Source: Acidovorax sp. NCPPB 4044
GTDB taxonomy: Bacteria; Pseudomonadota; Gammaproteobacteria; Burkholderiales; Burkholderiaceae_C
Direction of reading: 5' to 3'
DNA length: 64,000 bases
Assembly: GCF_028069655.1 (NCBI RefSeq)
Contig: NZ_JAMCOS010000001.1
Coordinates: 1,332,001 to 1,396,000 of the forward strand
The notes under the pieces are model-generated. The model was not told where the DNA came from and did no database searches. It saw only the letters and a program-made list of their open reading frames with translations. Shown piece by piece: positions 1 through 35,151 of the stretch. A program made the position numbers and the translations under genes. The first letter of the stretch is position 1. Each line of letters opens with the position of its first letter.

Positions 1-2219
1 TTGCCGGCATCCTTGAAGCGCTGGTAGGCCTTGCCGGGCCACACGGTGTCGCCCGTGCGGCGGGCGGCCAGGCACAGCATCGAGAGCGCCATGCCCGCGA
101 GCGCCCGGCGCCCCGCGGAAATCGCATCGGGGCGGTAGCCGCCGGTGTCGTGGTGCTGCTCCCAGGCCCATTCCCAGTCGGGCTGCAGGGCCACGGCCAG
201 TTGCTCGCGCATGGCTTCGCGCACGGCGTGCACGCGCTGCGGATCGACCACGTCGAGCTGTTCGGCGATGTAGCCCTCGGAGGGCAGGGCGAGCACCAGT
301 TCCTTGAAGGCTGCGTCCAGCGTCGGATGGCGCAGCACGTCGCGCATGGCCGCCACGAAGCTGGCGGGCAGCAGTTCTGCATCGATAGTGCCTGGTGCCG
401 CCGTATTCATTGAATAGTTTGCTATTTTTTTAATAGCAATCCGCAGCGCGAGGCGCTGGCCCGCCTCCCAGCGGTTGAACGGGTCGGTGTCATGCGCGAG
501 CAGGGCGAGCAGGGCTTCGTCGGAGTAGTCGATGTCCAGCAGCACCGGCGCGCTGAAGCCGCGCAGCAGCGAGGGCACGGGCTCGGAGGCCACGTTCACG
601 AAGGTGTAGGTGTGGCTCGGCTCGGTCAGCACGACGGTGCGGTCCGCGGCGCCGGCCCCTGCCTCGCCTTCAAGCTGCAGCGGCAGGGCGCTGCCGTCAT
701 CGCCGAGCAGGCCGAGCGCCACGGGGATGACCATGGGCTCCTTCACGGGCTGGCCGGGCGTGGGCGCGAGGCTCTGCGCCAGCGTGAGGGTGTAGGTGCG
801 GCCAGCGGCATCGTAGGTGCCGGAAGCGCGCACGCGCGGCGTGCCGGCCTGGGCGTACCAGCGCTTGAACTGCGGCAGCAGGCGCGCGAGTTCGCTGTCC
901 GGATTGGCGTCGGCGATGGCCTGGGCGAAGTCGTCGCAGGTCACTGCCTGGCCGTCGTGGCGCTCGAAGTACCGCTTCATGCCCGCGGCGAAGCCGTCGC
1001 GGCCGACCAGCGTGTGCATCATGCGCACGACCTCGGCACCCTTCTCGTAGATGGTGACGGTGTAGAAGTTGTTGATCTCGACATAGCTGTCGGGCCGCAC
1101 CGGGTGGGCCATGGGGCCCGCGTCCTCGGGGAACTGCACGGTGCGCAGCACGCGCACGTCCTCGATGCGTTTCACCGCACGCGCCGAAGGGCTGCCCGAG
1201 AGGTCCTGGCTGAATTCCTGGTCGCGGAAGACCGTGAGGCCTTCCTTGAGCGAGAGCTGGAACCAGTCGCGGCAGGTGACGCGGTTGCCGGTCCAGTTGT
1301 GGAAGTACTCGTGGCCGACCACCGATTCGATGTTGCCGAAATCCACGTCGGTGGCCGTGGCCTGGCTCGCCAGCACGTACTTCGTGTTGAAGATGTTCAG
1401 TCCCTTGTTCTCCATCGCGCCCATGTTGAAATCGCTGGTGGCGACGATCATGAAGCGCTCCAGGTCGAGCGGCAGGCCGAAGCGCGCCTCGTCCCAGGCG
1501 ATGCTGGCCATGAGCGATTCCATCGCGTGCTCGGTCTTCTCCAGGTCGCCCGGGCGCACGAAGATCTGCAGCAGGTGGTCGTTGCCCGACCGCGCGCGGA
1601 TGCGCTGCTCGCGCGCCACGAGCTTGCCGGCCACGAGCGCGAACAGGTAGCAGGGCTTCTTGTGCGGATCGACCCATTGGGCGAAATGCCGGCCGTCGGC
1701 CAGCTCGCCCTGGTCCACGAGGTTGCCGTTGGACAGCAGCACCGGGTACTCGGCCTTGCTGGCGCGCAGCGTGACCGTGTAGCTCGCCATCACGTCGGGC
1801 CGGTCGAGGAAGTAGGTGATGCGGCGGAAGCCCTCGGCCTCGCACTGCGTGAAGAACGTGCCCTGGCTCACGTAGAGGCCCGAGAGCTGGGTGTTCTTCA
1901 CGGGCGCGCAGGTCGTGAAGATCTCCAGGTCGAAGGGCTCGTGGCCTTCGGGCAGGTTCTCCAGCACGAGCTGGCTGCCTTCGAGCTTGAAGGACGTGCC
2001 CGCCCCGTTGACCAGCACCCGCGCGAGGTTCAGCTCCTGGCCGTCCAGGCGCAGGGGGGCCGGTGCCACGTCGGCATTGCGGCGCACCCGCAGGCGGCTC
2101 AGCACGCGGGTCTTGGCGGGGTCCAGGTCGAACGTGAGGTCGACGTTGTCGATCCAGAACGCGGGGGCGGTGTAGTCGGCGCGGTGGATGGCCGCGGCGG
2201 CTTGTCCTTCTCTCATCAT
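1..2219 (-). CDS. pepN: Aminopeptidase N, M1 family (3' end beyond window)
   Basis: Zinc metallo-aminopeptidase that removes N-terminal residues from peptides in the cytoplasm. The translated minus strand shows the M1 substrate motif GAMENKGLN and the zinc motif HEYFHNWTGNRV, followed by the downstream glutamate in LSLKEGLTVF. About 739 codons are visible; the family is about 870-900 residues, so the C-terminus lies left of base 1. The start is the first of two adjacent ATGs (2219, 2216), 25 bp after prfB, with which it is probably co-transcribed. Odd: residues about 594-608 read IAIKKIANYSMNTAA. They are encoded by a dispersed palindromic repeat sitting in frame (see 389-440), in AT-rich DNA unlike the rest of the gene. 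Family call is certain; whether the insertion affects activity is unknown. Confidence 0.95.
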   Translation of the reverse strand, partial: MMREGQAAAAIHRADYTAPAFWIDNVDLTFDLDPAKTRVLSRLRVRRNADVAPAPLRLDGQELNLARVLVNGAGTSFKLEGSQLVLENLPEGHEPFDLEIFTTCAPVKNTQLSGLYVSQGTFFTQCEAEGFRRITYFLDRPDVMASYTVTLRASKAEYPVLLSNGNLVDQGELADGRHFAQWVDPHKKPCYLFALVAGKLVAREQRIRARSGNDHLLQIFVRPGDLEKTEHAMESLMASIAWDEARFGLPLDLERFMIVATSDFNMGAMENKGLNIFNTKYVLASQATATDVDFGNIESVVGHEYFHNWTGNRVTCRDWFQLSLKEGLTVFRDQEFSQDLSGSPSARAVKRIEDVRVLRTVQFPEDAGPMAHPVRPDSYVEINNFYTVTIYEKGAEVVRMMHTLVGRDGFAAGMKRYFERHDGQAVTCDDFAQAIADANPDSELARLLPQFKRWYAQAGTPRVRASGTYDAAGRTYTLTLAQSLAPTPGQPVKEPMVIPVALGLLGDDGSALPLQLEGEAGAGAADRTVVLTEPSHTYTFVNVASEPVPSLLRGFSAPVLLDIDYSDEALLALLAHDTDPFNRWEAGQRLALRIAIKKIANYSMNTAAPGTIDAELLPASFVAAMRDVLRHPTLDAAFKELVLALPSEGYIAEQLDVVDPQRVHAVREAMREQLAVALQPDWEWAWEQHHDTGGYRPDAISAGRRALAGMALSMLCLAARRTGDTVWPGKAYQRFKDAG
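389..440 (-). repeat. Palindromic repeat copy 1, in frame in pepN
   Basis: Read on the minus strand: TTGCTATT-AAAAA-AATAGCAA stem-loop, then ACTATTCAATGAATACGGCGG and CACCAGGCAC. It shares the stem, the ACTATTCAATGAAT tail and the GGCGGCACCAGGCAC end with copy 2 at 3481-3533. It keeps the pepN frame open and encodes about 15 residues. It is an AT-rich island in a GC-rich gene. Confidence 0.88.
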
Positions 2220-2244
2220 GGCTTAGGCTGCTTTCCGGGCGCGG

Positions 2245-3349
2245 TCAAACGCCCTGCTTGAGGGAGGCTTCGATGAATACGTCGAGATCGCCATCCAGCA
2301 CCTTCTGGGTGGCGGAGATTTCGACGTTGGTGCGCAGGTCCTTGATGCGGCTGTTGTCCAGCACGTAGCTTCGGATCTGGTGGCCCCAACCCACATCGGT
2401 CTTGGTGTCTTCGAGCTTCTGCTGCTCTTCCATGCGCTTGCGCATCTCGAAGTCGTACAGGCGCGAGCGCAGACGCTGCCAGGCGACGTCGCGGTTGCTG
2501 TGCTGGCTGCGGCCGTCCTGGCACTGCACCACGATGCCGGTCGGGATGTGCGTGAGGCGCACGGCCGAGTCGGTCTTGTTGATGTGCTGGCCGCCCGCGC
2601 CGGAAGCGCGGAAGGTGTCGGTGCGCACGTCGGCCGGATTGATGTTGATCTCGATCGAGTCGTCGATCTCCGGATAGACGAACAGCGAGGCGAAGCTCGT
2701 GTGGCGGCCGCCCGAGGAGTCGAACGGGCTCTTGCGCACCAGGCGGTGCACGCCGGTTTCGGTGCGCAGCAGGCCGTAGGCGTATTCGCCTTCGATCTTG
2801 ATCGTGGCGCTCTTGATGCCGGCCACGTCGCCCGGGGTTTCGTCTTCGACCGTGGACTTGAAACCCTTGCGCTCGGCGTACTTGAGGTACTGGCGCAGCA
2901 GCATGCCGGCCCAGTCGCAGGCTTCGGTGCCGCCCGCGCCGGCCTGGATGTCCACGAAGCAGTTCAGCGGATCGGCCTCGTTGCTGAACATGCGGCGGAA
3001 CTCCAGCTCCTCGATGAGCGGGCGCAGCTTGGTGGTTTCGGATTCGATGGTGAGCAGGCCCGGCTCATCGCCTTCTTCCTTGCTCATCTCGTACAGCTCG
3101 ATGTTGTCGGCCAGCTCCTGCGTGAGCTTGTCCAGCGTGAGCACCACGCTGTCGAGGGATTTCTTTTCCTTGCCCAGTTCCTGGGCGCGCTTCGGATCGT
3201 TCCAGACCGCGGGGTCTTCGAGCGAGGCGTTGACGGTTCTCAGACGTTCGAATTTGGCATCGAAGTCAAAGATACCTCCGTAACTCTTGCGTCCGCTGGG
3301 AGAGGTCTTCGAGGGTGGTGCCGATGAGGTTGATGCGTTCTGCGTCCAT
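2245..3349 (-). CDS. prfB: Peptide chain release factor 2 (programmed +1 frameshift)
   Basis: Class I release factor that recognises UAA and UGA and triggers peptide release. The reading starts at ATG 3349 ([20 protein letters not shown]), reaches an in-frame UGA as codon 28, and continues after a +1 shift as [12 protein letters not shown] through to the stop at 2245. The RF2-type GGQ motif appears as [17 protein letters not shown]. Total length of about 367 residues is normal. A continuous reading from 3396 skips the true N-terminus and should not be used. pepN follows after 25 bp on the same strand. Regulation is translational: low RF2 favours the shift. Confidence 0.96.
3265..3280 (-). promoter_or_regulatory. 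RF2 programmed +1 frameshift signal
   Basis: On the coding strand the bases read CGGAGGTATCTTTGAC: an internal Shine-Dalgarno GGAGG (3275-3279), then CTT (codon 27), the in-frame stop TGA and C. This is the conserved layout of RF2 frameshift sites, where slow termination at UGA-C lets tRNA-Leu slip one base from CUU to UUU. Reading resumes with GAC in the frame that runs to 2245. Confidence 0.95.
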
Positions 3350-3480
3350 GGTGTGTCCTGGTGTCGGTTCGTTGGAGTAACCGGCGATTTTCTCACGCGC
3401 GGACGCCGGCGCCCTCCAATGTCCCTTCGCTGCCCGGAACGCGGTGCCGGGAGGAGGCCGCCGGCCCGCGATCCGGAGGG

Positions 3481-3533
3481 TTTGCTATTGAATCAATAGC
3501 AAACTATTGAATGGAATCGGCGGCACCAGGCAC
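3481..3533 (+). repeat. Palindromic repeat copy 2, intergenic
   Basis: TTGCTATTG-AAT-CAATAGCAA stem (9-bp arms), then ACTATTGAATGGAATCGGCGG and CACCAGGCAC. It lies between the stop of the alpha/beta hydrolase (3552) and the start of prfB (3349), on the strand opposite to both. The tail differs from copy 1 by only a few bases. Apart from this element I see nothing in the 202-bp gap. Confidence 0.85.
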
Positions 3534-3551
3534 GTTGGATCCGCAGAGGCG

Positions 3552-4481
3552 TCAGGGGGCCTGCAGGAACTCCTCGATGAGCCGCGCCACCGCGGCGGGC
3601 TGGTCGTGGTGCAGCATGTGCCCCGCGTCCTGCACCCGGGCCACGCGGCAGTCGGGCACGTGCCGCAGCCGCTCGTGGTATTGGTCCAGGTCGTAGCGGC
3701 CCTTCCACCACAGTCCCATGCTGTCGTCGCTCGCCTCCACGGCCAGCACCGGGGCGGCGATGGCGGCGTAGAGCGCCAGGGCTTCCTCGACGCGGTAGAG
3801 CAGCGGGTTGACCACCTTGTGCGCCGCGTCGCCCAGGATGTGCCAGGCGCTGTGGTCATCGGGCTGCGCCCATTCGCGCGCCAGCCATTCGGCCTGGCCG
3901 CGCCCGAGCCGCGGGTTGGTCTTCATGAGCCGCGCCGCGACCGCCTCGGCGCTGGCATAGGCCTTCAGGTGCCTGTCGCCGGCGTCCAGGCCGCGCAGTT
4001 CGTCCAGCCACTGCGCGTAGCGCGCGGGCGCCTGGGCGGGCTCGGTGGCCGGCAGGCCGAAGCCTTCGAGATTGACCAGGCGCCGGATGCGCTGCGGCCG
4101 CACGCCCGCGTAGGCCATGGCCACGTTGCCGCCCATGCTGTGGCCCACCAGGTCCACGGGCTGGCCGGGGGCGTAGTGGTCGAGCAGCCGGTCCAGGTCG
4201 GCGAGGTAATCGGCGAAGGGGTAGTGGTCGCAGCGCGCGGGCGGCATGCTGTGGCCGAAGCCGCGCCAGTCCGGCGCGATGATGCGGCGCCCCGCGGCGA
4301 AGGCCTCGCCGAAGGCGTCCACCACGAACTGGTAGGACGCGCCGACGTCCATCCAGCCGTGCACCATCACGAGCGGCGGCGCGGCGGGAGCGATGCCACC
4401 GCCCTCCCACAGGCGGACGTGGTAGTCGAGGGTGCGGATGGGCAGGCGTTCGCTGCGCGAAGCTCGGAGGGGCTGGTACAT
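3552..4481 (-). CDS. Alpha/beta-fold hydrolase
   Basis: Predicted serine hydrolase of 309 residues. Visible are the oxyanion region HGWMDVGAS, the nucleophile elbow VGHSMGGNVAMAY and the C-terminal catalytic-His segment AGHMLHHDQP. No signal peptide, so probably cytoplasmic. The reading frame is open much further upstream (to 4670), but that extension is proline/arginine-rich low-complexity sequence. The start MYQPLRASRSERLPIR at 4481 gives a normal family length. It is divergent from tas, with 214 bp between. Substrate cannot be read from the sequence; esters or epoxides are typical for the fold. Confidence 0.85.
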   Translation of the reverse strand: MYQPLRASRSERLPIRTLDYHVRLWEGGGIAPAAPPLVMVHGWMDVGASYQFVVDAFGEAFAAGRRIIAPDWRGFGHSMPPARCDHYPFADYLADLDRLLDHYAPGQPVDLVGHSMGGNVAMAYAGVRPQRIRRLVNLEGFGLPATEPAQAPARYAQWLDELRGLDAGDRHLKAYASAEAVAARLMKTNPRLGRGQAEWLAREWAQPDDHSAWHILGDAAHKVVNPLLYRVEEALALYAAIAAPVLAVEASDDSMGLWWKGRYDLDQYHERLRHVPDCRVARVQDAGHMLHHDQPAAVARLIEEFLQAP

Positions 4482-4695
4482 CGGGCGATTATTGATACGC
4501 AGCCCGCGCGAGGCAGTCAAGGCAGGGACAACGCGGCGGCGGGTGGCGGGCCGGGGCTTCGCTCGTGCGGGACCGGGCTGCGCGGCTTCCTCGGGGCAGG
4601 ACGAGGGACGGGCCTTCGGGCACGGGGCGGTCTGCGGGGATCGGGAAAATCCATTATTCTCGCCAGCCACTTTCGCCGCTTGTAGGCCTTAATCC

Positions 4696-5757
4696 ATGCA
4701 AAAAGTCACGTTGGGAGCCAGCGCGCTCCAGGTCACTCCCATCTGCCTCGGCACCATGACCTTCGGTGAACAGGTGAGCGAAGCGGATGCGCATGCCATC
4801 CTGGACCGCTCGCTGGCCGCGGGCATCAACTTCATCGACACTGCCGAGATGTACGCCGTGCCCGCGCGGGCCGAGACCTACGGCGCCACCGAGACCATCA
4901 TCGGCCGCTGGTTCGCCAAGACCCCCGGCGCCCGCGAGAAGACCGTGCTGGCCACCAAGGTGGCCGGTCCGTCGCGCGGCATGCCCTGGGTGCGCGAAGG
5001 CAAGGGCATGACCCCGGCCGACATCCAGGCCTCCTGCGAGGCGAGCCTGCGCCGGCTGCAGACCGACGTGATCGATCTCTACCAGATCCACTGGCCCGAG
5101 CGCCACGTGCCGGCGTTCGGCACCATGACCTACGACCCGGCCAAGGAAACCTCGGCCACGCCGATCCAGGAGCAGCTCGAAGCGCTCGCGAAGCTCGTGC
5201 AGGCCGGCAAGGTGCGCTGCGTGGGCCTGTCCAACGAAACGCCCTACGGCGTACATGAGTTCGTGCGGCTGGCCGAGGCGCACGGCCTGCCGCGCGTGGC
5301 GACGGTGCAGAACCCGTACTGCCTCATCAACCGCACCTGGGAGAACGCGATGGACGAAAGCTGCCATCGCCTGGGCGTGTCGCTGCTGGCCTATTCGCCG
5401 CTGGGTTTCGGCCTGCTCACGGGCAAGTACGACCAGCATGCGCCCACCGACCCCGGGGCGCCGCAGGACGGGCGCATCGCCCGCTACGAGTCCGTGCGCA
5501 AGCAGCGCTGGGGCCGGCCCGAAGCGCTGGCCGCCTCGCGCCGCTACAACCAGCTCGCGCGCGACCACGGCCTCACCCCCACGCAGCTGGCGCTGGCGTT
5601 CTGCTACCGCAACTGGCGCGTGGCGAGCACCATCATCGGCGTGACCTCGGTGGCGCAGTTCGAGGAAGACCTCGCCGCCTGGGACGTGGCGCTGTCGCCC
5701 GACGTGCTGGCCGCCATCGACGCCATCCGCTGGGAGCTGCGGGACCCGGCCCTGTGA
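4696..5757 (+). CDS. tas: Tas-like NADP(H)-dependent aldo/keto reductase
   Basis: 353-residue TIM-barrel oxidoreductase. The N-terminus (LGTMTFGEQVSEADAHAIL) and the segment INFIDTAEMY with its catalytic Tyr match E. coli Tas closely; the active-site Lys is in LATKVAG. Tas was found as a suppressor of tyrosine auxotrophy under starvation, but its natural substrate is unsettled. The ATG at 4696 gives the standard N-terminus. The stop codon overlaps the GTG start of ybaK by 4 nt (GTGA), so the two are translationally coupled. Confidence 0.9.
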   Translation: MQKVTLGASALQVTPICLGTMTFGEQVSEADAHAILDRSLAAGINFIDTAEMYAVPARAETYGATETIIGRWFAKTPGAREKTVLATKVAGPSRGMPWVREGKGMTPADIQASCEASLRRLQTDVIDLYQIHWPERHVPAFGTMTYDPAKETSATPIQEQLEALAKLVQAGKVRCVGLSNETPYGVHEFVRLAEAHGLPRVATVQNPYCLINRTWENAMDESCHRLGVSLLAYSPLGFGLLTGKYDQHAPTDPGAPQDGRIARYESVRKQRWGRPEALAASRRYNQLARDHGLTPTQLALAFCYRNWRVASTIIGVTSVAQFEEDLAAWDVALSPDVLAAIDAIRWELRDPAL

Positions 5758-6257
5758 GCCGCCGGGACCGGGCGGCCGCGCACGTGAGCGAGACGCCCGC
5801 CACGCAGTTCCTGCGCCGGCACGGCGTGGCGTTCACCGAGCATCCCTACGACTACGTGGAGCACGGCGGCACCGCCGAGTCGGCGCGCCAGCTCGGACTG
5901 GACGAACATACGGTCGTGAAAACGCTGGTCATGCAGGACCAGGACGCGCGGCCCCTGATCGTGCTCATGCACGGCGACCGCAAGGTGTCCACCAAGAACC
6001 TCGCGCGGCAGATCGGCGCGAAATCGGTGGAGCCCTGCCAGCCCGAGGTCGCGAACCGCCACAGCGGCTATCTGGTGGGCGGCACCTCGCCCTTCGGCCT
6101 GCGGCGGGAGATGCCGGTGTACATCGAGGACACCATCCTGGCGCTGCCGCGCATCGCCATCAACGGCGGCCGCCGCGGCTTCCTGGTGCAGCTCGATCCG
6201 CAGGCCTGCGTGCAGTGGCTGGGTGCGCGCCCGGTGCAGTGCGCGCTGGCAGAATAG
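5754..6257 (+). CDS. ybaK: Cys-tRNA(Pro)/Cys-tRNA(Cys) deacylase, YbaK/EbsC type
   Basis: Trans-editing protein of 167 residues that hydrolyses cysteine mis-attached to tRNA-Pro. The YbaK core is visible: [11 protein letters not shown] with the conserved Lys, [17 protein letters not shown] and [13 protein letters not shown]. The start is GTG at 5754, overlapping the tas stop; a GTG at 5784 ([14 protein letters not shown]) would match shorter homologues and cannot be excluded. It probably forms one transcript with tas, and plsY follows after 61 bp. Confidence 0.92.
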
Positions 6258-6318
6258 CCGGCCCGCGCGCGGCGGCGCTGCTGCCGCGCCCCGTTGTCGA
6301 CCCACAAGGACCGAAATC

Positions 6319-6957
6319 TTGACCGCCGTGTATTCCCTCCTGGCCACCGTGGCCGCCTACCTGCTGGGTTCGCTGTCCTTCGCCGTCATCGTGAGCCGTG
6401 CCATGGGCCTGAACGATCCGCGCACCTACGGCAGCAAGAACCCCGGCGCCACGAACGTGCTGCGCTCGGGCAGCAAGGCCGCGGCGGCGGTGACGCTGCT
6501 CTTCGACGCCCTGAAGGGCTGGCTGCCGGTGGTGCTGGCCCAGGCGTACGGGCCGCGCTACGGGCTGGGAGACGGCACCGTGGCGCTCGTCGGCCTGGCG
6601 GCCTTCCTGGGGCACCTCTGGCCGGTGTTCTTCCGCTTCGAAGGCGGCAAGGGCGTGGCCACGGCGCTCGGCGTGCTGATGGGCGTGAGCGGCTGGCTGG
6701 GGCTGGCCACGCTGCTCACGTGGGCCATCATCGCCTTCTTCTTCCGCTATTCGTCCCTGGCCTCGATCGTGGCCGCGCTGTTCGCGCCGCTCTACTACGT
6801 GCTGGGCGACGGCGTGGCCTGGTACGCGGAGGCCCCCGTGGGCGTGGCCATCGCGGTGATGTCGGGCCTGCTGATCTGGCGCCACCGTGAGAACATCCGC
6901 CGCCTCATGGCCGGCACGGAGTCGCGGCTGGGCAGGAAAAAGGCGGGCAGGGGCTGA
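6319..6957 (+). CDS. plsY: Acyl-phosphate:glycerol-3-phosphate acyltransferase
   Basis: Inner-membrane enzyme making lysophosphatidic acid from acyl-phosphate and glycerol-3-phosphate, the first step of phospholipid synthesis. It has five hydrophobic segments and the three PlsY motifs: [26 protein letters not shown] and [16 protein letters not shown]. The start is TTG at 6319, supported by an AAGGA 8 nt upstream (6306-6310); a GTG at 6328 is the alternative. 212 residues is typical. The 84 bp after it are the convergent junction with the next gene. Confidence 0.95.
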
Positions 6958-7041
6958 AGCCGCCCCCGGCGCGGCAGGCCGGGCACAAGGCCGGCCTCCT
7001 CGTTCACCGCGGTATTTCGTTTCAGCGGCCGCAATGCCCGG

Positions 7042-8088
7042 TCAGCGCGGCGCGGCCGGGGCATTGCCCAGGCGTGCCAGGCCGCGGTACTGGCGTGCGG
7101 CGTAGAGCCCCAGGCGCACGAGCATGCGGTGGTCGAGTTCCACCTGCACGGCCGAGCGCGCCAGCGCCGACTGGATGCGCGGCCGGCCCGTGGCCGTCTG
7201 GTGCAGTGCGGGCTGGCGGCGGTGCTCGCCGTTGCGGTCCAGCAGGCTCGCCACCAGCGGCGAATTGACCTTCTCGCTGCGGCGCAGCACGAGCGCCGTC
7301 TCGCCGTTGTCCAGCCGCACGAACGTGCCCGGCGGGCACAGGCCCACCGACCGCACGAGCGCATAGGTGACCTCGTCGCGGCGCTCCTCGTCGTTGCCCA
7401 CGATGGCGCGCACCGAATCGGTGGCGCTGCGCCCCGCGCGGGACTTGCGCGGGCTGATCATGGCCGCGTAGCGGTCGATGGTGCCCAAAATGCGGTTGAG
7501 GCGCTGCGCGGGCGGCAGCGTGGCGAGGGGGCGCGCATCGCCTTCGGGCGGCAGCGCGTGGTGGTGGCCCACCACGTCGAGCCAGAGCGGGTCGCGGATG
7601 CCCTGGTGGTGCAGCAGCTGGCGGCTGCGGTGCGGGTGTTCGTCGATGGATTTCTGCTGGGCCGGCGTGGGGCGCTCGCGCTGGTTGGCCAGTTCGTCCT
7701 GCAGGGCCGTCATGCCGATGTTCATCGTCATCGCCGCGCGCACGAGGCTGTCGCGCTCGGCGGGCGGCAGCTGCAATTCATGCGCGAGGATGTGGCAGAG
7801 CGTGCCGCAGACCAGCGCGTGCGAGGCGCTGTAGCCCACGCTGGAGGTGGCTGCCAGCTGGAACATGAGGTAGAGGGCCGCATCGGTGTCGTGCGCGACC
7901 AGGTCCTGCAGCCAGCGGTCGCACTGCTGCACCTTCGCAGCGAAATCCACCACCTGGGCAGGCCGCGCCAGCAGCACCGACATGGCGGATTCGAGGTCGG
8001 ACCAGAGCCCGAGCAGGTCTTCGTACTCGCTGTCGGAAGATTCCGCGTGCAGAGCGGAAGGGTGCGTCGAAATGCCGGTGGAAGCCAT
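7042..8088 (-). CDS. Degenerate HD-GYP-like domain protein
   Basis: 348-residue cytoplasmic protein whose middle part aligns with the HD-GYP fold of c-di-GMP phosphodiesterases: HALVCGTLCHILAHELQL, AAMTMNIGMTALQDEL, HPHRSRQLLHHQGI and VVGHHHALPPEG. The HD pair that binds metal is replaced (TMNIG where HDIG is expected) and the GYP loop is absent, so phosphodiesterase activity is doubtful. It may act as a binding or scaffold protein. It is last in a minus-strand run after yajQ (a c-di-GMP-binding family) and a retropepsin-like protein, with 17 bp between it and the latter. The family reading is moderately sure; loss of activity is inference. Confidence 0.72.
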   Translation of the reverse strand: MASTGISTHPSALHAESSDSEYEDLLGLWSDLESAMSVLLARPAQVVDFAAKVQQCDRWLQDLVAHDTDAALYLMFQLAATSSVGYSASHALVCGTLCHILAHELQLPPAERDSLVRAAMTMNIGMTALQDELANQRERPTPAQQKSIDEHPHRSRQLLHHQGIRDPLWLDVVGHHHALPPEGDARPLATLPPAQRLNRILGTIDRYAAMISPRKSRAGRSATDSVRAIVGNDEERRDEVTYALVRSVGLCPPGTFVRLDNGETALVLRRSEKVNSPLVASLLDRNGEHRRQPALHQTATGRPRIQSALARSAVQVELDHRMLVRLGLYAARQYRGLARLGNAPAAPR

Positions 8089-8105
8089 GGGCCGCAGCGG
8101 TGGGG

Positions 8106-8762
8106 TCAGCGCCGCTTTTCCAGCACCAGCTGGTCGTTGGAGCGTGTCATCTGGAACTCGTTGAGCACGCTGTTGCCCAGCAGCACGAAGGGCATGCCCT
8201 GCGGCGTGACGACCGCGTCCACGCCGAACACCTCGACATCGCCCAGCCGGACCGAATCGAGCTTCACGCGCCAGCCCCGGGCGGTGCCATTGGCGGTGCC
8301 CAGCGCCACGGGCGTGCCGCTGCGGTAATCGAGGCCCATGCGGTCCGCGTCGGGCTGGCCGATGGCGACCGTGCTGGCCCCCGTGTCCACGAGGTACTGC
8401 ATGGCCTTTCCGTTGATGGTGCCGCTGCTCACGAAATGGCCGCGGCCGTCGGCGGTGAGCACCACGCGCCGGCCGGTGCCCGCACCGCGGCCGCCCACGC
8501 TCACGGGCGCTTCGCCCAGCAGCACCGTGCGGCGCCCGCTGGCGGTTTCGAGCACGGCATCGTCGCGCCCGACGGAGATCACCTTCACGCCCTGGAAGCT
8601 CTCCCCGGCGCCGAGCGCGCGCGGCGGGTTGGCATCGACCACGATCAGCGCCTTGCTGCCCAGGATGCCTGTGAGCGCGACGGCCTGCGCGCCCGCCAGC
8701 GCCGGGGCCAGCGCCAGGGCGCAGGCCCCCACGGCGCGCGGAAAGCGGGGCAGGAAGCGCAT
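8106..8762 (-). CDS. Retropepsin-like aspartic protease, exported
   Basis: 218 residues with an N-terminal signal-like segment (ACALALAPALAGAQA). The C-terminal half carries the single-domain aspartic protease motif VDTGASTVAIG and a matching hydrophobic-hydrophobic-Gly segment near the end (MPFVLLGNSVLNEF). Such proteins work as dimers like retroviral proteases. The N-terminal 100 residues have no motif I recognise. It lies 41 bp downstream of yajQ and 17 bp upstream of the HD-GYP-like gene, so the three may share a transcript. Substrate unknown; the periplasm is the likely site. Confidence 0.85.
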   Translation of the reverse strand: MRFLPRFPRAVGACALALAPALAGAQAVALTGILGSKALIVVDANPPRALGAGESFQGVKVISVGRDDAVLETASGRRTVLLGEAPVSVGGRGAGTGRRVVLTADGRGHFVSSGTINGKAMQYLVDTGASTVAIGQPDADRMGLDYRSGTPVALGTANGTARGWRVKLDSVRLGDVEVFGVDAVVTPQGMPFVLLGNSVLNEFQMTRSNDQLVLEKRR

Positions 8763-13948: not shown

Positions 13949-13993
13949 TCGCTATATTTTTAATAGCAAACTTTTCAATGTTTCCGCCGGCAT
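13949..13993 (+). repeat. Palindromic repeat copy 3, intergenic
   Basis: CGCTATATTTTTAATAGCAA, then ACTTTTCAATGTTTCCGCCGG and CATG. It is the most diverged copy but retains stem, tail and CCGCCGGCATG end. It sits between the argG stop and the argG terminator, so it is transcribed in antisense orientation at the 3' end of the argG message. Confidence 0.75.
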
Positions 13994-14018
13994 GAAGCCT
14001 GCAGAGCATGAAACCGCC

Positions 14019-17077: not shown

Positions 17078-18403
17078 ATGCAAAGCACTTTCGACACCCT
17101 GGACGGATGGCTGGCCCATTGCGAGCGCATCCACCCGAAAACGATCGACATGGGCCTGGATCGTGTGAGCGAAGTGGCTCGCCGCCTCGGCCTGCGCTTC
17201 GACTGCCCCGTGATCACGGTGGCGGGCACGAATGGCAAGGGCTCCACCTGCGCCATGCTCGAAGCGGTGGCGCTGCAGTCGGGCTACCGGACGGGGGTGT
17301 ACACCTCGCCCCACCTCGTGCGCTTCGAGGAGCGGTGCCGGATCCGGGGCGACAGCGTGGATGCTCCTGAATTAATAGCGAACTTCGCAGCAGTCGAGGC
17401 GGCACGGACGCAAAACGGGCAGGAAGTCTCGCTCTCGTACTTCGAGTTCACCACGCTGGCCATCCTGCGGCTCATGAGCCAGGCGCGGCTGGACGTCGCC
17501 ATCCTGGAGGTCGGCCTCGGCGGGCGGCTCGACGCCACCAACGTCATCGATGCCGACTGCGCGGTCATCACCAGCATCGACATCGACCACACCGAATTCC
17601 TCGGGCCGGACCGCGAAACCATCGGCCGCGAGAAGGCCGGCATCATGCGTGCCGGCCGGCCGGCCGTGGTCAGCGACCCCATGGCGCCGCAGAGCGTGAT
17701 CGACCACGCCCAGGCCATCGGCGCGGACCTGTGGCGTTTCGGCCAGGATTTCAATTTCTCGGGCGACAAGCAGCAATGGGGCTGGGCCGGCCGCGGGCGG
17801 CGGTATGCGGGCCTGGCGTACCCGGCACTGCGGGGCGCCAACCAGCTCGTCAATGCCTCGGGCGTGCTGGCGGCGCTGGAGGCGGTGCGCGACCGCCTGC
17901 CCATCACGGCCCAGGCCGTGCGGACCGGCCTGGCCATGGTGGAGCTGCCCGGCCGGTTCCAGATCGTTCCCGGGCAGCCGACGCTGGTGTTGGACGTGGC
18001 GCACAACCCCCATTCCGTGGCCGCCCTCACGGCGAACCTCGACGCCATGGGCTTCTTCCCGACGACCCATGCGGTGTTCGGAGCGATGGCCGACAAGGAC
18101 CTGGCGCCGATGCTGGCCAAGATCGGGCCGCTGGTGGACCGGTGGTATTTCACCGATCTCCCGACGCCGCGTGCGGAAACCGCCGCCGCGCTGCAACAGA
18201 AATGGAATGCGCTCCAGATCGTCGCGGGAGGGCGGCGCGACGTGCGCACCAGCCTGCACGCAGGCCCCCAGCCGGCGCTGGATGCTGCCGTGGCCGCCGC
18301 AGAGCCGACTGATAGAATCGTGGTCTTTGGCTCTTTCTACACGGTAGGCGGTGTGCTGCTCCACGGAACGCCCCGCCTGCAGGCCAAGCACCTGGGCGCT
18401 TGA
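17078..18403 (+). CDS. folC: Bifunctional dihydrofolate/tetrahydrofolate (folylpolyglutamate) synthase
   Basis: Adds glutamate to dihydropteroate and to tetrahydrofolates. Motifs: the ATP P-loop VAGTNGKGSTCAMLE, YTSPHLVRFEERCRI, VGLGGRLDATNVI, SIDIDHTEFLG and the Mur-ligase-type VLDVAHNPHSV. 441 residues is usual. It opens the block folC - SPOR - cvpA - purF - metZ - gltX. A short AT-rich stretch at 17371-17389 (coding ELIANF, with a rare ATA codon) resembles the tail of the palindromic repeats and may be a decayed copy. Confidence 0.96.
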   Translation: MQSTFDTLDGWLAHCERIHPKTIDMGLDRVSEVARRLGLRFDCPVITVAGTNGKGSTCAMLEAVALQSGYRTGVYTSPHLVRFEERCRIRGDSVDAPELIANFAAVEAARTQNGQEVSLSYFEFTTLAILRLMSQARLDVAILEVGLGGRLDATNVIDADCAVITSIDIDHTEFLGPDRETIGREKAGIMRAGRPAVVSDPMAPQSVIDHAQAIGADLWRFGQDFNFSGDKQQWGWAGRGRRYAGLAYPALRGANQLVNASGVLAALEAVRDRLPITAQAVRTGLAMVELPGRFQIVPGQPTLVLDVAHNPHSVAALTANLDAMGFFPTTHAVFGAMADKDLAPMLAKIGPLVDRWYFTDLPTPRAETAAALQQKWNALQIVAGGRRDVRTSLHAGPQPALDAAVAAAEPTDRIVVFGSFYTVGGVLLHGTPRLQAKHLGA

Positions 18404-21452: not shown

Positions 21453-21465
21453 GAGGGACCGCTCC

Positions 21466-24192: not shown

Positions 24193-24268
<76 letters not shown>

Positions 24269-24301
24269 CTGAGAGTTAGCCAGTCGTTGGTTCCAGGTTT
24301 T

Positions 24302-24377
24302 GACCCTATCGTCTAGAGGCCTAGGACATCACCCTTTCACGGTGAGTACCGGGGTTCGAATCCCCGTAGGGTCGCCA
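24302..24377 (+). tRNA. tRNA-Glu (TTC), copy 1
   Basis: Acceptor GACCCTA/TAGGGTC, anticodon stem TCACC/GGTGA with loop CTTTCAC, anticodon TTC. T loop GGTTCGAATCC; CCA is encoded. It lies just downstream of the gltX gene, whose product charges it. Confidence 0.97.
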
Positions 24378-24427
24378 AGTTTGTAGCACTTGGTTTGCAC
24401 GGATGTGCAAGCAAACGCTGCCTGCCA

Positions 24428-24504
24428 GGAGTGGTAGTTCAGTTGGTTAGAATACCGGCCTGTCACGCCGGGGGTCGCGGGTTCGAGTCCCGTCCACTCC
24501 GCCA
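24428..24504 (+). tRNA. tRNA-Asp (GTC), copy 1
   Basis: 77 nt. Acceptor GGAGTGG pairs with CCACTCC, anticodon stem CCGGC/GCCGG with loop CTGTCAC, anticodon GTC. T arm CGGGTTCGAGTCCCG; CCA is encoded. Confidence 0.97.
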
Positions 24505-24512
24505 GTCATGGA

Positions 24513-24540
24513 CCTTGAAAGTGCAACTTTCAAGGTTCTT
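24513..24540 (+). terminator. Hairpin between the two tRNA units
   Basis: Perfect 10-bp stem CCTTGAAAGT/ACTTTCAAGG with a 3-nt loop, then TTCTT. It could be a weak terminator or a processing stem between the duplicated units. The T tract is interrupted, so full termination is doubtful. Confidence 0.5.
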
Positions 24541-24562
24541 CTTGGTGAAAGCCAGGAAAAGT

Positions 24563-24638
<76 letters not shown>

Positions 24639-24671
24639 CTGAGAGTTAGCCAGTCGTTGGTTCCAGGTTTT

Positions 24672-24747
24672 GACCCTATCGTCTAGAGGCCTAGGACATC
24701 ACCCTTTCACGGTGAGTACCGGGGTTCGAATCCCCGTAGGGTCGCCA
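24672..24747 (+). tRNA. tRNA-Glu (TTC), copy 2
   Basis: Same sequence as the copy 370 bp upstream, anticodon TTC, CCA encoded. Confidence 0.97.
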
Positions 24748-24797
24748 AGTTTGTAGCACTTGGTTTGCACGGATGTGCAAGCAAACGCTGCCTGCCA

Positions 24798-24874
24798 GGA
24801 GTGGTAGTTCAGTTGGTTAGAATACCGGCCTGTCACGCCGGGGGTCGCGGGTTCGAGTCCCGTCCACTCCGCCA
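24798..24874 (+). tRNA. tRNA-Asp (GTC), copy 2
   Basis: Same sequence as the copy 370 bp upstream, anticodon GTC, CCA encoded; last gene of the cluster. Confidence 0.97.
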
Positions 24875-26395: not shown

Positions 26396-26463
26396 CAGCG
26401 CCGCTGTCGGCCGCCACAAGCCGCAGGCCTGCCGGGGACTCCCCGACTGGCGACAATGCGGTG

Positions 26464-27684: not shown

Positions 27685-29183
27685 CGAACGACGCCGCCCC
27701 GATGGCCGGCGCGCAGGCTCCAGCCTCCGCTGCCGGCGCTGCGGTTCCTGCGGGAGTGCCGGACGGGCTCGAGCCTCCTGCCCGCGCGCGGGCCATGCTG
27801 GTCATCATCCTGGGCATCGCGGTCGCGGTGCTGGACGGCAGCATCGTCAATCTCGCCCTGCCCGCCATCGCGCGCGAGTTGAATGCCGGCGCGCCGCAGG
27901 CCATCTGGGTGGTGAACGCCTACCAGATCGCCACGCTCGGCATGCTGCTGCCGCTGGCGGCGCTGGGAGAGCGCATCGGCTACCGGCGCGTCTACCTCAT
28001 CGGCATGCTGCTGTTCGCGGTGTCGTCCATCGGAGCGATGCTTGCCTCGTCGCTCACCACGCTCATCGCGGCGCGTGCCGTGCAGGGCCTGGGGGCTGCC
28101 GGGATCATGAGCGTGAACGCGGCACTGGTGCGGCTGACCTACCCACGCGCGCGCCTGGGACAGGGGCTGGCGATCAACTCGCTGGTGGTGGCGGCCTCGT
28201 CGGTGGCCGGTCCCTCGGTGGCCGCGGCCATCCTGTCGGTGTCGTCGTGGCCGATGTTGTTCGCCATCAATCTGCCGCTGGGGCTGGTGACGCTCTGGCT
28301 CGGGCGCCGCGCGCTGCCCTTCAACCCGCAGCGGCCGGCGGGCAGCGCGCCCGGCGCCGGCGCGGCGCGGTTCTCGGTGCTGGACGTGGCGCTCAATGTG
28401 CTGATGTTCGCGCTGGTATTCATCGGGGGCGACCAGCTGGGCGTGCGCGCCGAGGCGGGCGGCTCGCCGCTCGCCGGGGCGGCGATGCTGCTGGCGGGCG
28501 TGGCCGTGGGCGTGGTCTACCTGCGCCGGCAGATCGCGCTCGAACGGCGCCATGCCACGCCGCTCTTCCCCGTGGACCTGATGCGCATCCCCGTGTTCGC
28601 GCTGTCGATGGGGGCGTCGGTGGCGGCGTTCTGCGCGCAGATGCTGGCATTCCTTTCGCTGCCCTTTCTGCTGCTGGAGGCCCACGGGCGCTCGCACGTG
28701 GAGGCCGGGCTGCTGATCACGCCGTGGCCGCTGGCCATCGTGGCGGTGGCGCCGCTGGCCGGCCGCCTGATCGGGCGCGTGCCGGACGGAGTGCTGGGCG
28801 GTATCGGCATGGCGGTGCTGGCGGGTGGGCTCGCCGCGCTGGCCACCCTGCCGGTCGACCCGGGCGCGCTGGGCGTCGTCTGGCGGATGGCGCTGTGCGG
28901 TGCCGGGTTCGCGCTGTTCCAGTCGCCCAACAACCACACCATCGTGACCTCGGCGCCGCTGCAGCGCTCGGGCGCCGCCGGCGGCATGCTGAGCACGGCG
29001 CGCCTGACCGGGCAGACGCTCGGCGCCGTGCTGCTGGCCGTGATCTTCGCGGTGTGGGGCACCCACGGCGGCCGCGCGGAAACCGTGGCGCTGTGGCTCG
29101 CTTCGGGCTGCGCGGTGCTGGCGGGCGTGTGCAGCGTGCTGCGCCTGCGCCCGGCCGGCACGCAGCGCACGAATGGGCATTGA
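27681..29183 (+). CDS. DHA2-type (14-TMS) MFS transporter
   Basis: About 500 residues with around 14 hydrophobic segments. Motif C-like and DHA2 landmarks: AVLDGSIVNLALPAIAREL in helix 1, WVVNAYQIATLGMLLPLAAL, GERIGYRRVYLIGM and RAVQGLGAAGIMSVN. It resembles EmrB/SmvA-type exporters of dyes and biocides. The start is TTG 27681 overlapping the previous stop; an ATG at 27702 is a possible alternative, since the first 30 residues are low-complexity. No membrane-fusion partner gene is adjacent. Confidence 0.88.
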   Translation: MTNDAAPMAGAQAPASAAGAAVPAGVPDGLEPPARARAMLVIILGIAVAVLDGSIVNLALPAIARELNAGAPQAIWVVNAYQIATLGMLLPLAALGERIGYRRVYLIGMLLFAVSSIGAMLASSLTTLIAARAVQGLGAAGIMSVNAALVRLTYPRARLGQGLAINSLVVAASSVAGPSVAAAILSVSSWPMLFAINLPLGLVTLWLGRRALPFNPQRPAGSAPGAGAARFSVLDVALNVLMFALVFIGGDQLGVRAEAGGSPLAGAAMLLAGVAVGVVYLRRQIALERRHATPLFPVDLMRIPVFALSMGASVAAFCAQMLAFLSLPFLLLEAHGRSHVEAGLLITPWPLAIVAVAPLAGRLIGRVPDGVLGGIGMAVLAGGLAALATLPVDPGALGVVWRMALCGAGFALFQSPNNHTIVTSAPLQRSGAAGGMLSTARLTGQTLGAVLLAVIFAVWGTHGGRAETVALWLASGCAVLAGVCSVLRLRPAGTQRTNGH

Positions 29184-29191
29184 ACAGCCCT

Positions 29192-29239
29192 CATGCCGCC
29201 GGATTCATTGAATAGTTTGCTATTAAAAAAATAGCGATT
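29192..29239 (-). repeat. Palindromic repeat copy 4, intergenic
   Basis: Minus strand: CGCTATTTTTTTAATAGCAA, then ACTATTCAATGAATCCGGCGG and CATGA. It fills the gap between the convergent MFS gene (stop 29183) and the DUF72 gene, whose TAA lies at the element edge. The DUF72 message therefore runs through it in sense orientation. Confidence 0.85.
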
Positions 29240-30372
29240 TAGTCCGGCGGTGGCGATGGCTGCGGAGCGCGCAGCGCTGCCACCTGCGCGGCCAGGGTCC
29301 GTATCGTGAGGGGCGCGCAGCCCTCCGCATGGTTGCTGATCGCCACGAAGGCGTTCTGCCCGGCGCCGGTGATGCCGGACAGGGCGCGGGCCAGCACGGC
29401 CTGCACCTCCGGCGCGGGGTGGACGATGCGGTCGAACGGGCTGTAGAGCGCTTCGGCATCTTCGTAGCCATAGGCGCCATGCACGGGGTTGAGGTTCCAG
29501 CGGCACACCAGCGGGCCGGGCCACAGGCGCCGCAGCAGCCGCAGCTGCTCCTGGAGCGGGGGCATCTTGGCGTGCAAGCCCAGGCAGTAGGTGGCGCCGG
29601 CCGAACGCAGGGCATCCGCGAACAGCGGCTCGTACTCGGGCCACAGCCATTGCGGATCGCGCACCTCCACGGCCAGCACGCCGTCCGGCGCGGTGGGCGC
29701 GAGCGGCGGCATGGCGCGCAGCAGGGCGCCGAGGCGCTCGATGGTGGCTTCGAGGCGGTCGAGCTGCGCGAGTGGCAGGGGGCTCAGCTGGAACACCAGC
29801 GCCCCGACCTTGGCCCCCAGGCCCTCCAGCGCCGGCGCCACGAATTCCTGCAGCGCCAGCGCAGCGTCCAGAAAGGCCGGATTGGGCGCGCGTCCCCGGC
29901 CGTCCTCGGCGCGCACGAGCGCATCGGTCACGAGGCTCGGCGCCTTCACGATGAAGCGGAAGTCCTCCGGCACCTGGGCCGCGTAGCCCGCGTACTGGCT
30001 CACCGTGAGCGGCCGGTAGAACCCCCGGTCGATGCTCACGGTGCGCATCAGCGGATGCTGCGCATACGCCGCCAGGCCCTGCCGGGCGAGCGTGGATTCG
30101 GAATGATCGCCCTCCCAGACGAGGCCCTTCCAGCCGGGATAGCTCCAGGACGAGCCACCCAGCCGCAAAGGGGGCGGGAGCGCTGCGGCGAGCGCGAGCA
30201 GGTCGGCATCCGGTGCGACGGGCCGCACGCCGCCGGCGCCGCGCCGCGCCGGTGCGGCGGGAGGTTTGGTATCCGAGGGGGCCGGGTCCGCGGCCGGGGC
30301 GGGCGGCGGGGGCGGTGGAGGAGGGGGCGGAAGGTCGTCGCCGAAAAGGGATTCTTGCATCGGAGCGGCCAT
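29239..30372 (-). CDS. DUF72-family protein (YecE-like)
   Basis: 377 residues. The DUF72 TIM-barrel-like pattern is visible: LRLGGSSWSYPGWKGLVW, STLARQGLAAYAQHPLMRTVSID, FYRPLTVSQYAGYAAQVPEDFRFIVKAP, VEVRDPQWL and YGYEDAEALYSPF. A poly-proline stretch (ten Pro, about residues 15-24) lies near the N-terminus. Function of the family is unknown. I start at ATG 30372 (MAAPMQESLFGDD); ATG 30360 is equally good. The open frame runs further upstream through the GCGTG repeat (RHATP repeats), which I regard as noncoding. The stop lies against repeat copy 4. Confidence 0.85.
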   Translation of the reverse strand: MAAPMQESLFGDDLPPPPPPPPPPAPAADPAPSDTKPPAAPARRGAGGVRPVAPDADLLALAAALPPPLRLGGSSWSYPGWKGLVWEGDHSESTLARQGLAAYAQHPLMRTVSIDRGFYRPLTVSQYAGYAAQVPEDFRFIVKAPSLVTDALVRAEDGRGRAPNPAFLDAALALQEFVAPALEGLGAKVGALVFQLSPLPLAQLDRLEATIERLGALLRAMPPLAPTAPDGVLAVEVRDPQWLWPEYEPLFADALRSAGATYCLGLHAKMPPLQEQLRLLRRLWPGPLVCRWNLNPVHGAYGYEDAEALYSPFDRIVHPAPEVQAVLARALSGITGAGQNAFVAISNHAEGCAPLTIRTLAAQVAALRAPQPSPPPD

Positions 30373-30460
30373 GGTATCGGCGGTCGGGGCGGCGACGCCT
30401 CCGGTCGCCATGACCGGCGCTATGACAGGGCGCTGTAGGCCATGCCGTGTCCCGGACAGG

Positions 30461-30521
30461 GCGTGGCGTGGCGTGGCGTGGCGTGGCGTGGCGTGGCGTG
30501 GCGTGGCGTGGCGTGGCGTGG
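30461..30521. repeat. Pentanucleotide microsatellite (GCGTG)12
   Basis: Twelve perfect copies of GCGTG in a row between the divergent DUF72 gene (start 30372) and tex (start 30638). The unit length is not a multiple of three, and copy-number change would also shift promoter spacing by half a helical turn per unit. The run ends about 117 bp before the tex ATG and 89 bp before the DUF72 start. Confidence 0.97.
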
Positions 30522-30637
30522 CCACTGTGTCACGAATTGTTGTCGGCTCCCGTGTGTCCTTCTGGCCGGCCGGTGGGCGTCCGCGCCGCTATGGCACACT
30601 CGCCCGCTTCGTTTTTCGGCGTTCTTTCGCAAGGGAT

Positions 30638-33004
<2,367 letters not shown>

Positions 33005-33053
33005 AAGGCGTTGCGGGCATGGATAATGGGCCGGTCCCCGCCCGCCCCACGCC

Positions 33054-33881
33054 ATGGAACTCAACGCCCTGCTGGAAATGCCCGTGGCGCTGCCGAGCCA
33101 TCCGCGCGCGGTGGCGCTGCTGATGGCCGAACTCGCGCACGCCGAGCCCAGCCTGCGCCGCCTCACGCAGATCTTCTGCACCGACCCCGCCCTGGCGGCG
33201 CGCCTGCTGGAGCTGGCCAACACTCCCGCCTTCCAAGCCCCGCGCGCGATCTGTGGCGTGCCCGAGGCGCTGGCGCTGGTGGGCGTGCCGCAACTGCAGA
33301 CGCTGGTCGGCTCGGCGGCGCTGGGCACCACCTCGCGCTCGGTGCCGGGCGTCAACCTGCAGCAGTTCTGGCGCTACAGCCTGCACACGGCCAAGATGGC
33401 GCGCTCGCTGGCCGGCATCGTGCGGCACAACCCGCTGGCCGCCTACACGGCCGGCCTGCTGCACGGCCTGGGCGAGTTGCTGATCCACCTGGGCCACCCC
33501 GAACGGCTGGTGTCGATCAACTCGCTGGTGGGCCTGTTCGACCCGCGCCGCGCGGCGCTGGAGCAGCGCCTGCTCGGATACGGTTTCGGCGAGGTGAGCG
33601 CGGCCATGGCGCGGCGCTGGCAATTGCCGCAGATGGTGGTCGATGCGCTGCAGTACCAGCACGCGCCGTTCGACAACAGCGTCTACGAGCCCCTGGCGGG
33701 CGTCCTGCACCTCGCCGCCTGGCGGGCCTGGGCGCGCGAGGCCGGCTGGGGCGACAAGGAACTGGCCGTGTCGTTCCCCGCGGAAGTCGGGCTGCCGCTG
33801 GGCCTGGACATCGACATGGTGCTGCAGCAGGACTCCATCGACTGGACGGCGCACGCGGACGCGAGCGCCTACATGGTGTGA
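33054..33881 (+). CDS. HDOD-domain protein
   Basis: 275 residues forming one HDOD domain, a relative of HD phosphohydrolases without catalytic activity. Visible: LPSHPRAVALLMAELAHAEPSLRRL, IFCTDPALAARLLELANTPAF, ALALVGVPQLQTLV and the HD-like YTAGLLHGLGELLIHLGH. Such proteins take part in signalling and in cell-cycle or motility control, often beside c-di-GMP proteins. No receiver domain is present. It follows tex by 49 bp and precedes the patatin-like gene by 34 bp. Confidence 0.9.
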   Translation: MELNALLEMPVALPSHPRAVALLMAELAHAEPSLRRLTQIFCTDPALAARLLELANTPAFQAPRAICGVPEALALVGVPQLQTLVGSAALGTTSRSVPGVNLQQFWRYSLHTAKMARSLAGIVRHNPLAAYTAGLLHGLGELLIHLGHPERLVSINSLVGLFDPRRAALEQRLLGYGFGEVSAAMARRWQLPQMVVDALQYQHAPFDNSVYEPLAGVLHLAAWRAWAREAGWGDKELAVSFPAEVGLPLGLDIDMVLQQDSIDWTAHADASAYMV

Positions 33882-33915
33882 TGCGCCGCGCGTTGCCGCC
33901 CTGCCGGGGGTGCGC

Positions 33916-35151
33916 ATGACGGCGCCCCGGCCGCTGCGCGCGCTGCGCATCCACGCCGGACCGGAGGCGCTCCGGCACATCGCATGCCACGGCCTCGGGC
34001 CCTCCGACATCGGCGTGGTGCCGGCCGCCGCGGGCGGGCCCAAGGGGCTGGTGCTGGGCCCGCTGGACCGCTTTCTCTTCGGCGACTGGCTGGCGCGCGG
34101 TGCCGGGCCCGTGGACCTCGTGGGCGCCTCGATCGGCGCCTGGCGCATGGCCACGGCCTGCATGGCGCGGCCCGTGGAGGCCTTCGACCGCCTGGAGCAG
34201 GCCTACATCCACCAGGCCTACGACGTGCCGCCCGGCCGCACGCGCCCCGCGCCCGCCCACGTCAGCGAGCGGTTCGGCCAGAGCCTGCAGGCCTTCTATG
34301 CAGGCCATGTGGCCGAGGTGCTCTCGCACCCGCGGTTCCGGCTGCACCTGGTCACTTCCCGCGGCCGGCACCTGCTCGCGCGGGAGCACCGGGTCGCCAC
34401 GCCGCTCGGCTACCTCGGCGCGTTCGCGGCCAATGCGGTGCACCGGCGCGCGATGGGGCTGTGGCTGGAACGGGTGGTGTTCTCTTCGTCCCCCGTGCGA
34501 GCGGCCGGGCCGGGCGGACCGGCGGGCGCCGGCGGAGGAGGGCCGCACTCCGCACCGGCCGCGCTGCCCTTCGCTACCGGCGACTACCCCACGCGGCAGG
34601 TGGCGCTGCGCGAAGACAACTTCCTGCCCGCGCTGCAGGCGAGCTGCTCGATCCCGTTCGTGCTGCAGGCGGTGCACGACATCCCGGGCGCACCACGCGG
34701 CGCCTACTGGGACGGCGGCATCACCGACTACCACCTGCATCTGCGCTATGGACATCCGAATGCTATTAAAGATATAGCAAACTATTCAATGAATACGGCG
34801 GCATGGAAGGGTTTTGACTCCAATGCTGCCGCACCCGGCCGGCTGGTGCTGTACCCCCACTTCCAGCAGCAGGTGGTGCCGGGCTGGCTCGACAAGGGGC
34901 TGCGCTGGCGCCACCGGGCCACGCGGGCGCTCGATCGGGTGGTGCTGCTCTCGCCCGACCCCGCCTGGGTGAGCGCGTGCCTGCCGGGTGGCAAGCTGCC
35001 CGACCGGCAGGACTTCCTGCGCTACGGCACCGACACGCCGGCCCGCGCCCGCGCCTGGGGCGCGGCGGTGGCGGCCAGCCGGCAACTGGCCGACGAGTTC
35101 GCCGCGTGGGTGGAGGGCGGGTGCCCGCTGGAGGCGGTCGAGCCGCTCTGA
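33916..35151 (+). CDS. Patatin-like phospholipase with repeat-encoded insertion
   Basis: 411 residues. Patatin hallmarks: oxyanion segment AAGGPKGLVLGPLDRFL, nucleophile elbow VGASIGAW (GxSxG) and the catalytic Asp motif YWDGGITDYHLHL. Probably an intracellular lipid acyl hydrolase. Start ATG 33916 (MTAPRPLRALRIHAGP). Odd: directly after the catalytic-Asp loop, residues about 282-296 read NAIKDIANYSMNTAA. This is the same peptide as in pepN, encoded by palindromic repeat copy 5 in frame. The segment after it (GRLVLYPHFQQQVVPGWLDKG) resumes normal GC-rich coding. Whether activity survives is unknown. Confidence 0.85.
   Translation: MTAPRPLRALRIHAGPEALRHIACHGLGPSDIGVVPAAAGGPKGLVLGPLDRFLFGDWLARGAGPVDLVGASIGAWRMATACMARPVEAFDRLEQAYIHQAYDVPPGRTRPAPAHVSERFGQSLQAFYAGHVAEVLSHPRFRLHLVTSRGRHLLAREHRVATPLGYLGAFAANAVHRRAMGLWLERVVFSSSPVRAAGPGGPAGAGGGGPHSAPAALPFATGDYPTRQVALREDNFLPALQASCSIPFVLQAVHDIPGAPRGAYWDGGITDYHLHLRYGHPNAIKDIANYSMNTAAWKGFDSNAAAPGRLVLYPHFQQQVVPGWLDKGLRWRHRATRALDRVVLLSPDPAWVSACLPGGKLPDRQDFLRYGTDTPARARAWGAAVAASRQLADEFAAWVEGGCPLEAVEPL
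34760..34806 (+). repeat. Palindromic repeat copy 5, in frame in patatin-like gene
   Basis: TGCTATTAAAGATATAGCAA, then ACTATTCAATGAATACGGCGG and CATGG. The tail is identical to that of copy 1 through ACTATTCAATGAATACGGCGG. It keeps the reading frame and encodes AIKDIANYSMNTAA on the coding strand. Confidence 0.9.

Follow-up and report, generated by a model that had tools for sequence, protein, structure and literature searches.

Short palindromes dispersed in bacterial genomes belong to several described systems. Rickettsia palindromic elements have their copies mainly inside genes, and DNA uptake sequences occur at a density of about one per kb. Repetitive extragenic palindromic (REP) and REPIN sequences, which are accompanied by a REP-associated tyrosine transposase (RAYT), carry a GTAG- or CGTC-type tag at one end (PMC3733652). 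Among betaproteobacteria, the BRE of Bordetella is a dispersed repeat of ~90 bases and 69% GC with some copies in coding sequences (PMC3110155), and two "potential novel motifs" have been listed, GCTTAT(N)5AAGCG in Acidovorax ebreus and ATAGCT(N)22CAAAAG in Polaromonas naphthalenivorans, both mostly intergenic and the latter with 14% in genes (PMC5217627). Here we report the analysis of a palindromic element that has five copies in a 64-kb stretch of Acidovorax sp. NCPPB 4044 (contig NZ_JAMCOS010000001.1, positions 1,332,001 to 1,396,000; the window), and of its family in the host genome, in the genus and in the wider bacterial family.

The element consists of a palindrome of the form GCTAT-N7-ATAGC followed by a one-sided tail of ~45 bases, which extends through CGGCGGCATGGAG(G)C and slightly past it, so that the whole element as delimited by a profile covers ~65 bases. 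Its copies make up one dispersed family with hundreds of members, chiefly a dispersed DNA site of which some copies are in frame within genes. We consider it probable that the element is old, that it occupies fixed sites and that its sequence is under active maintenance. More tentatively, the copies could represent chromosome-wide fixed DNA addresses across genera, with letters that a dedicated copying system rewrites in situ and one dialect per lineage; under that reading hundreds of orthologous sites may be concerned, codons of housekeeping genes included. Dispersed bacterial repeats are usually regarded as mobile and short-lived, whereas here the sites are shared, the letters change in concert, and codon use at the pepN and truB sites goes with the DNA element. 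Should this hold, both the homogenisation of bacterial repeats in place and its purpose would be open to direct tests.

Like the Rickettsia palindromic elements, the family includes in-frame copies within genes, one of them, in a patatin gene, with empty orthologous sites, but it lies mostly outside genes and its DNA is kept at shared sites. With the BRE it shares a dispersed betaproteobacterial distribution and occasional copies in coding sequences; the length and GC content of the BRE set it apart by description, not by sequence. The A. ebreus motif occurs letter for letter in one copy of a compared genome (G153), and the Polaromonas motif appears to resemble another tail type; the section of the source that lists them presents motifs only, with no element, dialects or orthologous sites (PMC5217627). 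Searches of open-licence papers turned up no description of such an element, of dialects or of orthologous sites.

Abundance, age and tail dialects of the sites

In the host genome (G000; compared genomes are numbered likewise), 224 sites in 5.3 Mb match the 19-mer core AATAGCAAACTATTSAATG with at most two mismatches, against 0 for the reversed control, and an unselected stretch of 400 kb contains 24 profile matches at E<1e-6, which extrapolates to ~320 per genome. The hundreds of copies that the initial annotation had extrapolated from five are thus borne out. As counted with a crude gene caller, 3 of the 24 copies in the 400 kb lie wholly inside called genes, one of them at the extreme 3' end; in a stretch of 198 kb, at least 3 of 12 copies are in genes (pepN, patatin and truB), and six of the remaining nine are unannotated. 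Two same-strand copies, G000:C1:1401799 and G000:C1:1401978, stand 179 bases apart, and both are also found in G159.

Across 150 genomes of the host family, the palindrome occurs at least 20 times in 45 and is absent from 49 (reversed controls 0-6); G020 holds 235 palindromes. The 17 genomes of the genus fall into 11 rich ones, with 78-274 palindromes, and a clade of six poor ones, with 10-15. In a pepN tree of 54 genomes, built with the columns of the site removed, the poor clade branches from within the rich genomes, so the family was probably lost in that clade. No substitute palindrome was enriched in 38-kb stretches from five genomes of the element-poor clade; one site of G163 holds a GC-rich palindrome.

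Comparison of orthologous positions suggests that the sites are older than the genus. G155 is occupied at 10 of 11 G000 sites in the 198 kb, where 0.54 would be expected and 0 of 20000 simulations reached 10, and the tail lies on the same side of the palindrome at 9 of the 10 shared sites. The host and its sister species G159 clearly have 11 of 12 copies in common, with no recent insertion seen between the two genomes. Identity between them is 107/110 in the arms, 350/385 in the tail, 61/77 in the loop and about.80 in the flanks, the arms being preserved as the loop drifts. Between G155 and G164, 6 of 7 G155 copies could be compared, and all 6 are matched in G164, in some cases with damage to the arms.

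The tails at these sites come in types that are nearly exclusive genome-wide within the genus. The type A core has 224, 218 and 19 matches in G000, G159 and G158, one in G154 and none in the other 13 genomes, and the type B tail has 139, 129, 103 and 99 in G155, G164, G154 and G151 and 3-6 in the other 13, where the listed ones are GC-rich lookalikes; the tails of G000 are type A, and those of G155 are mostly type B. With arm score as the sole guide to the palindrome and the G000 strand deciding the tail side, mean tail identity was.72 within G000 (55 pairs),.50 between G000-G155 orthologues (10),.56 between G000-G158 orthologues (7) and.41 after shuffling. Label permutation within sites gave 0/2000 for three genomes, 6/2000 for G000/G155 and 37/2000 for G000/G158 (7 sites). 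Because the tails resemble the other copies of their own genome more than their orthologues in other clades, the alignments indicate concerted evolution at shared sites, at a pace slower than sister-species splits. One G155 tail (L291, near G155:C1:1910000) has its middle segment reversed relative to the other G155 tails, as if flipped.

Copies within pepN, truB and patatin genes

The names pepN and truB are read from the protein sequences, and the pepN open reading frame (ORF) was named without a family scan. At one codon position of pepN, placed in 114 genomes (103 first and 11 later, the later scores being entered by hand and seven poor ones as 5), 41 of 49 family-rich genomes carry the palindrome, against 3 of 65 poor ones; the association has a Fisher probability of 1.1e-16 in the 103 genomes placed first. 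The sample of 150 genomes, 148 of which had a pepN match, contributed 100 of these 114 sites. In the 40 genomes first placed with the palindrome, the arms are nearly fixed, isoleucine is encoded by ATA in 40/40, and the loop is free, with an identical codon offset in 38 of them. The pepN genes of several genera have a decayed tail beside perfect arms. In the poor clade the site reads GCCATCCAGGCCATCGG or near it, that is, a similar protein written in GC-rich codons, and compared with the closest element-free relatives the length of pepN is unchanged. For named pepN records, 72 of 80 could be placed among the matches listed; five had 9-10 of 10 arm letters (two Acidovorax, Polaromonas, Curvibacter and one unclassified Comamonadaceae), and the other 67 were without them. 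A contig titled Desulfovibrionaceae (L436), likewise among the matches listed, carries a Comamonadaceae-like pepN of 70% identity, perhaps through a binning error.

The third in-gene copy lies outside the window and antisense to truB. Eight or more of the 10 arm letters are retained there by 15 of 16 rich genomes and by 0 of 12 poor ones (28 placed of 30 loci retrieved, from 48 genomes with a match; G009, which is rich, and G001 were left unplaced), and in the clade that lost the family the site has GC-rich codons. Since the palindrome tracks family-rich genomes at pepN and truB and the clade without the family has GC-rich codons there, it seems that the DNA, beyond the protein, is kept at both sites. 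The initial annotation took the same sequence at the same sites in other genera as a sign of ordinary ancestral sequence; such sharing was found at pepN and truB, but ordinary ancestral coding is not borne out, because relatives without the family use GC-rich codons at these positions.

For the patatin gene, aligned in 15 genomes of the genus, the element occupies the same site in nine, including G000, and is missing in six, which are the poor clade. Within the genus the patatin copies switch tail type between clades, as does truB. The patatin gene of the sister species looks degraded, with a partial match and stops, and the copy there (G159:C11:93744) has mostly unalignable flanks. By the letters, TAG always falls in one of the palindrome's reading frames, so that within genes only the other frames are usable, and the pepN, patatin and truB copies are all read as A-I-x-x-I-(A/V). 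This shared peptide frame in pepN and patatin, together with the in-frame insertion missing from six of 15 patatin genes, agrees with the protein-inserting nature proposed in the initial annotation by analogy with Rickettsia palindromic elements. As an account of the whole family that reading is nonetheless highly doubtful: most counted copies lie outside genes, the pepN copy leaves the length of the gene unchanged, and at pepN and truB the DNA is kept, more than the peptide alone.

Proposed recognition of the palindrome and competing explanations

Among 24 G000 copies found by their tail, the 5' arm is changed in 8, with compensation in 0 of the 8, and the 3' arm is intact in all 24. Conservation of the stem as a structure was rejected on these grounds, and the missing compensatory change points to the sequence, and not a hairpin, as what is recognised. 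Folded as single strands, two window copies did not outperform their shuffles (z -0.52 and -0.87); the typed consensus alone folds better than shuffles (z -2.86). In the mechanism that we propose for an old element with fixed sites, GCTAT-N7-ATAGC would be recognised as a sequence, probably by a putative dimeric DNA-binding or DNA-cutting protein, and the tails would be overwritten by non-reciprocal copying among copies, either by gene conversion or by re-targeted insertion that begins at the palindrome. Such in-place overwriting could produce clade dialects without new sites, the initial spread having presumably occurred through transposition.

The element resembles REP and REPIN sequences in its short palindrome, its hundreds of copies, its intergenic bias and the RAYT in the genome. 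It differs from them in arms without covariation, in the asymmetric tail, in old shared sites and in a RAYT adjacency that does not extend to the other genera examined. The host genome has one RAYT gene (NF047646, 82.2 bits, cut-off 80). The link to RAYT, which the initial annotation had suggested checking, is weak overall. Within the genus, a copy with at least 9 of 10 arm letters lies no more than 300 bases upstream of the RAYT gene in 10 of the 11 genomes that bear the family and in 0 of the 6 poor ones. A classical REP element moved by the RAYT of its genome would fit this adjacency, but is unlikely in view of the other genera, in which 0 of 32 family-rich genomes examined (of 43) have a copy upstream of RAYT and one has a downstream copy. 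RAYT-like matches are found in 132 of 150 genomes, 44 of them above the cut-off, with or without the family, and the rich genome G020 has a weak match only (E 1.9e-4). RAYT as a general partner was rejected outside the genus; because adjacency fails there and RAYT-like matches are near universal, a separate recognising protein is proposed.

Several results weigh against an old element with fixed sites and actively kept sequence. No protein recognising the palindrome was found. A weak phylogenetic control, with only 5 independent pairs on supported branches, gave on average 3.1 concordant and 0.1 discordant pairs (sign test p.25), and at pepN the palindrome is missing in 8 rich genomes and present in 3 poor ones. 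The type A core is also found outside the genus, in G110 (34) and G117 (18) from two other genera, so the dialects are not strictly clade-bound; moreover, the tails of G155 are mixed (.525 within the genome), and the pepN tails of G155 and G164 are not type B. Orthologous tails of sister species (.905 and.82) are closer than paralogues, the G155-G164 tail figure being lowered by a misplaced MFS/DUF72 row of G164, a genome outside the permutation. The G000 copy nearest to a G159 copy is a non-orthologue in 5/11 cases and the orthologue or a tie in 6/11, a mixed outcome. The high arm identity between these two genomes comes from a count anchored on the 3' arm. The argG and truB sites have site-specific variants common to G000 and G159, so that any rewriting would be slow or selective. 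Finally, at site s3 the tail is on the opposite side of the palindrome in G155 and G164, which re-insertion would fit equally well.

The opposite tail side at s3 is also a point in favour of independent, repeated insertion of lineage-specific elements at the same target sites. Another is the window site of copy c2, next to a release-factor gene, where the palindrome is present in G000, G159 and G158 and absent from G155, from G164 and from all five element-poor genomes that were examined. We assign this explanation a low probability, as it has to contend with the identical codon offset in pepN, with the common tail side at nine of ten shared sites, and with the decayed pepN tails that accompany perfect arms in several genera.

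The dialects could also be those of a DNA self-recognition or uptake sequence, in which case competent cells would favour the local dialect and transformation would push sites toward it. We regard this as improbable: the element density of one copy per 16-24 kb is far below that of Neisseria, and an uptake drive could not easily create the tails. An uptake sequence is a word of about 9-12 bases, whereas the element is conserved over ~65 bases and is far rarer, with its 224 core matches in 5.3 Mb. The uptake sequences of the Neisseriaceae are nevertheless similar in forming lineage dialects, in occupying permissive regions and being tolerated in genes, and in their intergenic stem-loop forms, often as inverted pairs (PMC3630211). 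The uptake reading is possible because Acidovorax temperans and A. facilis are transformable and the Acidovorax tested took up no detectable DNA across Acidovorax species, although the same source gives uptake-sequence lengths of 9-11 bases, against a tail of ~45 (PMC4212676).

Copies and other features of the window

All five copies reported in the initial annotation were recovered at their places and on both strands, two of them in frame within genes as it had described:

382..439, minus strand: copy c1, palindrome 421-437, in frame within pepN
3482..3539, plus strand: copy c2, palindrome 3484-3500, between an alpha/beta-hydrolase gene and a release-factor gene (PCRF/RF-1)
13949..14006, plus strand: copy c3, palindrome 13951-13967, directly past the argininosuccinate synthase gene
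29180..29237, minus strand: copy c4, palindrome 29219-29235, between convergent MFS and DUF72 genes
34760..34817, plus strand: copy c5, palindrome 34762-34778, in frame within a patatin-domain ORF
3..2219, minus strand: pepN-like aminopeptidase ORF that holds c1 and runs beyond the window, assigned by translation and orthologues
33643..35151, plus strand: patatin-domain ORF that holds c5 (PF01734, 28.3 bits, cut-off 27.7)

The stem drawn at first, GCTATT-N5-AATAGC, is exact in three of the five copies and has one mismatch in each of the other two, and GCTAT-N7-ATAGC fits better; the tail is one-sided, and the element is longer than had been drawn. Overall, the interpretation given in that annotation is partly supported. 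Allowing up to two mismatches to the palindrome, the window has 6 matches versus 0.35 expected, and 0 of 100 shuffles reached 6, which places the copies well above chance; the sixth match, at 17363, is weak against the element profile (8.3 bits, E 0.51). Copies c2, c3 and c4 are intergenic, as judged by Pfam-supported neighbours, and the extent of c4 given by the profile reaches the stop codon of the MFS gene.

At Rfam gathering scores the window yields seven tRNAs and nothing more. Six tRNA genes, at 24193-24871, are arranged in two runs of three with a constant offset of 370 bases, which points to a tandem duplication of a three-tRNA array.

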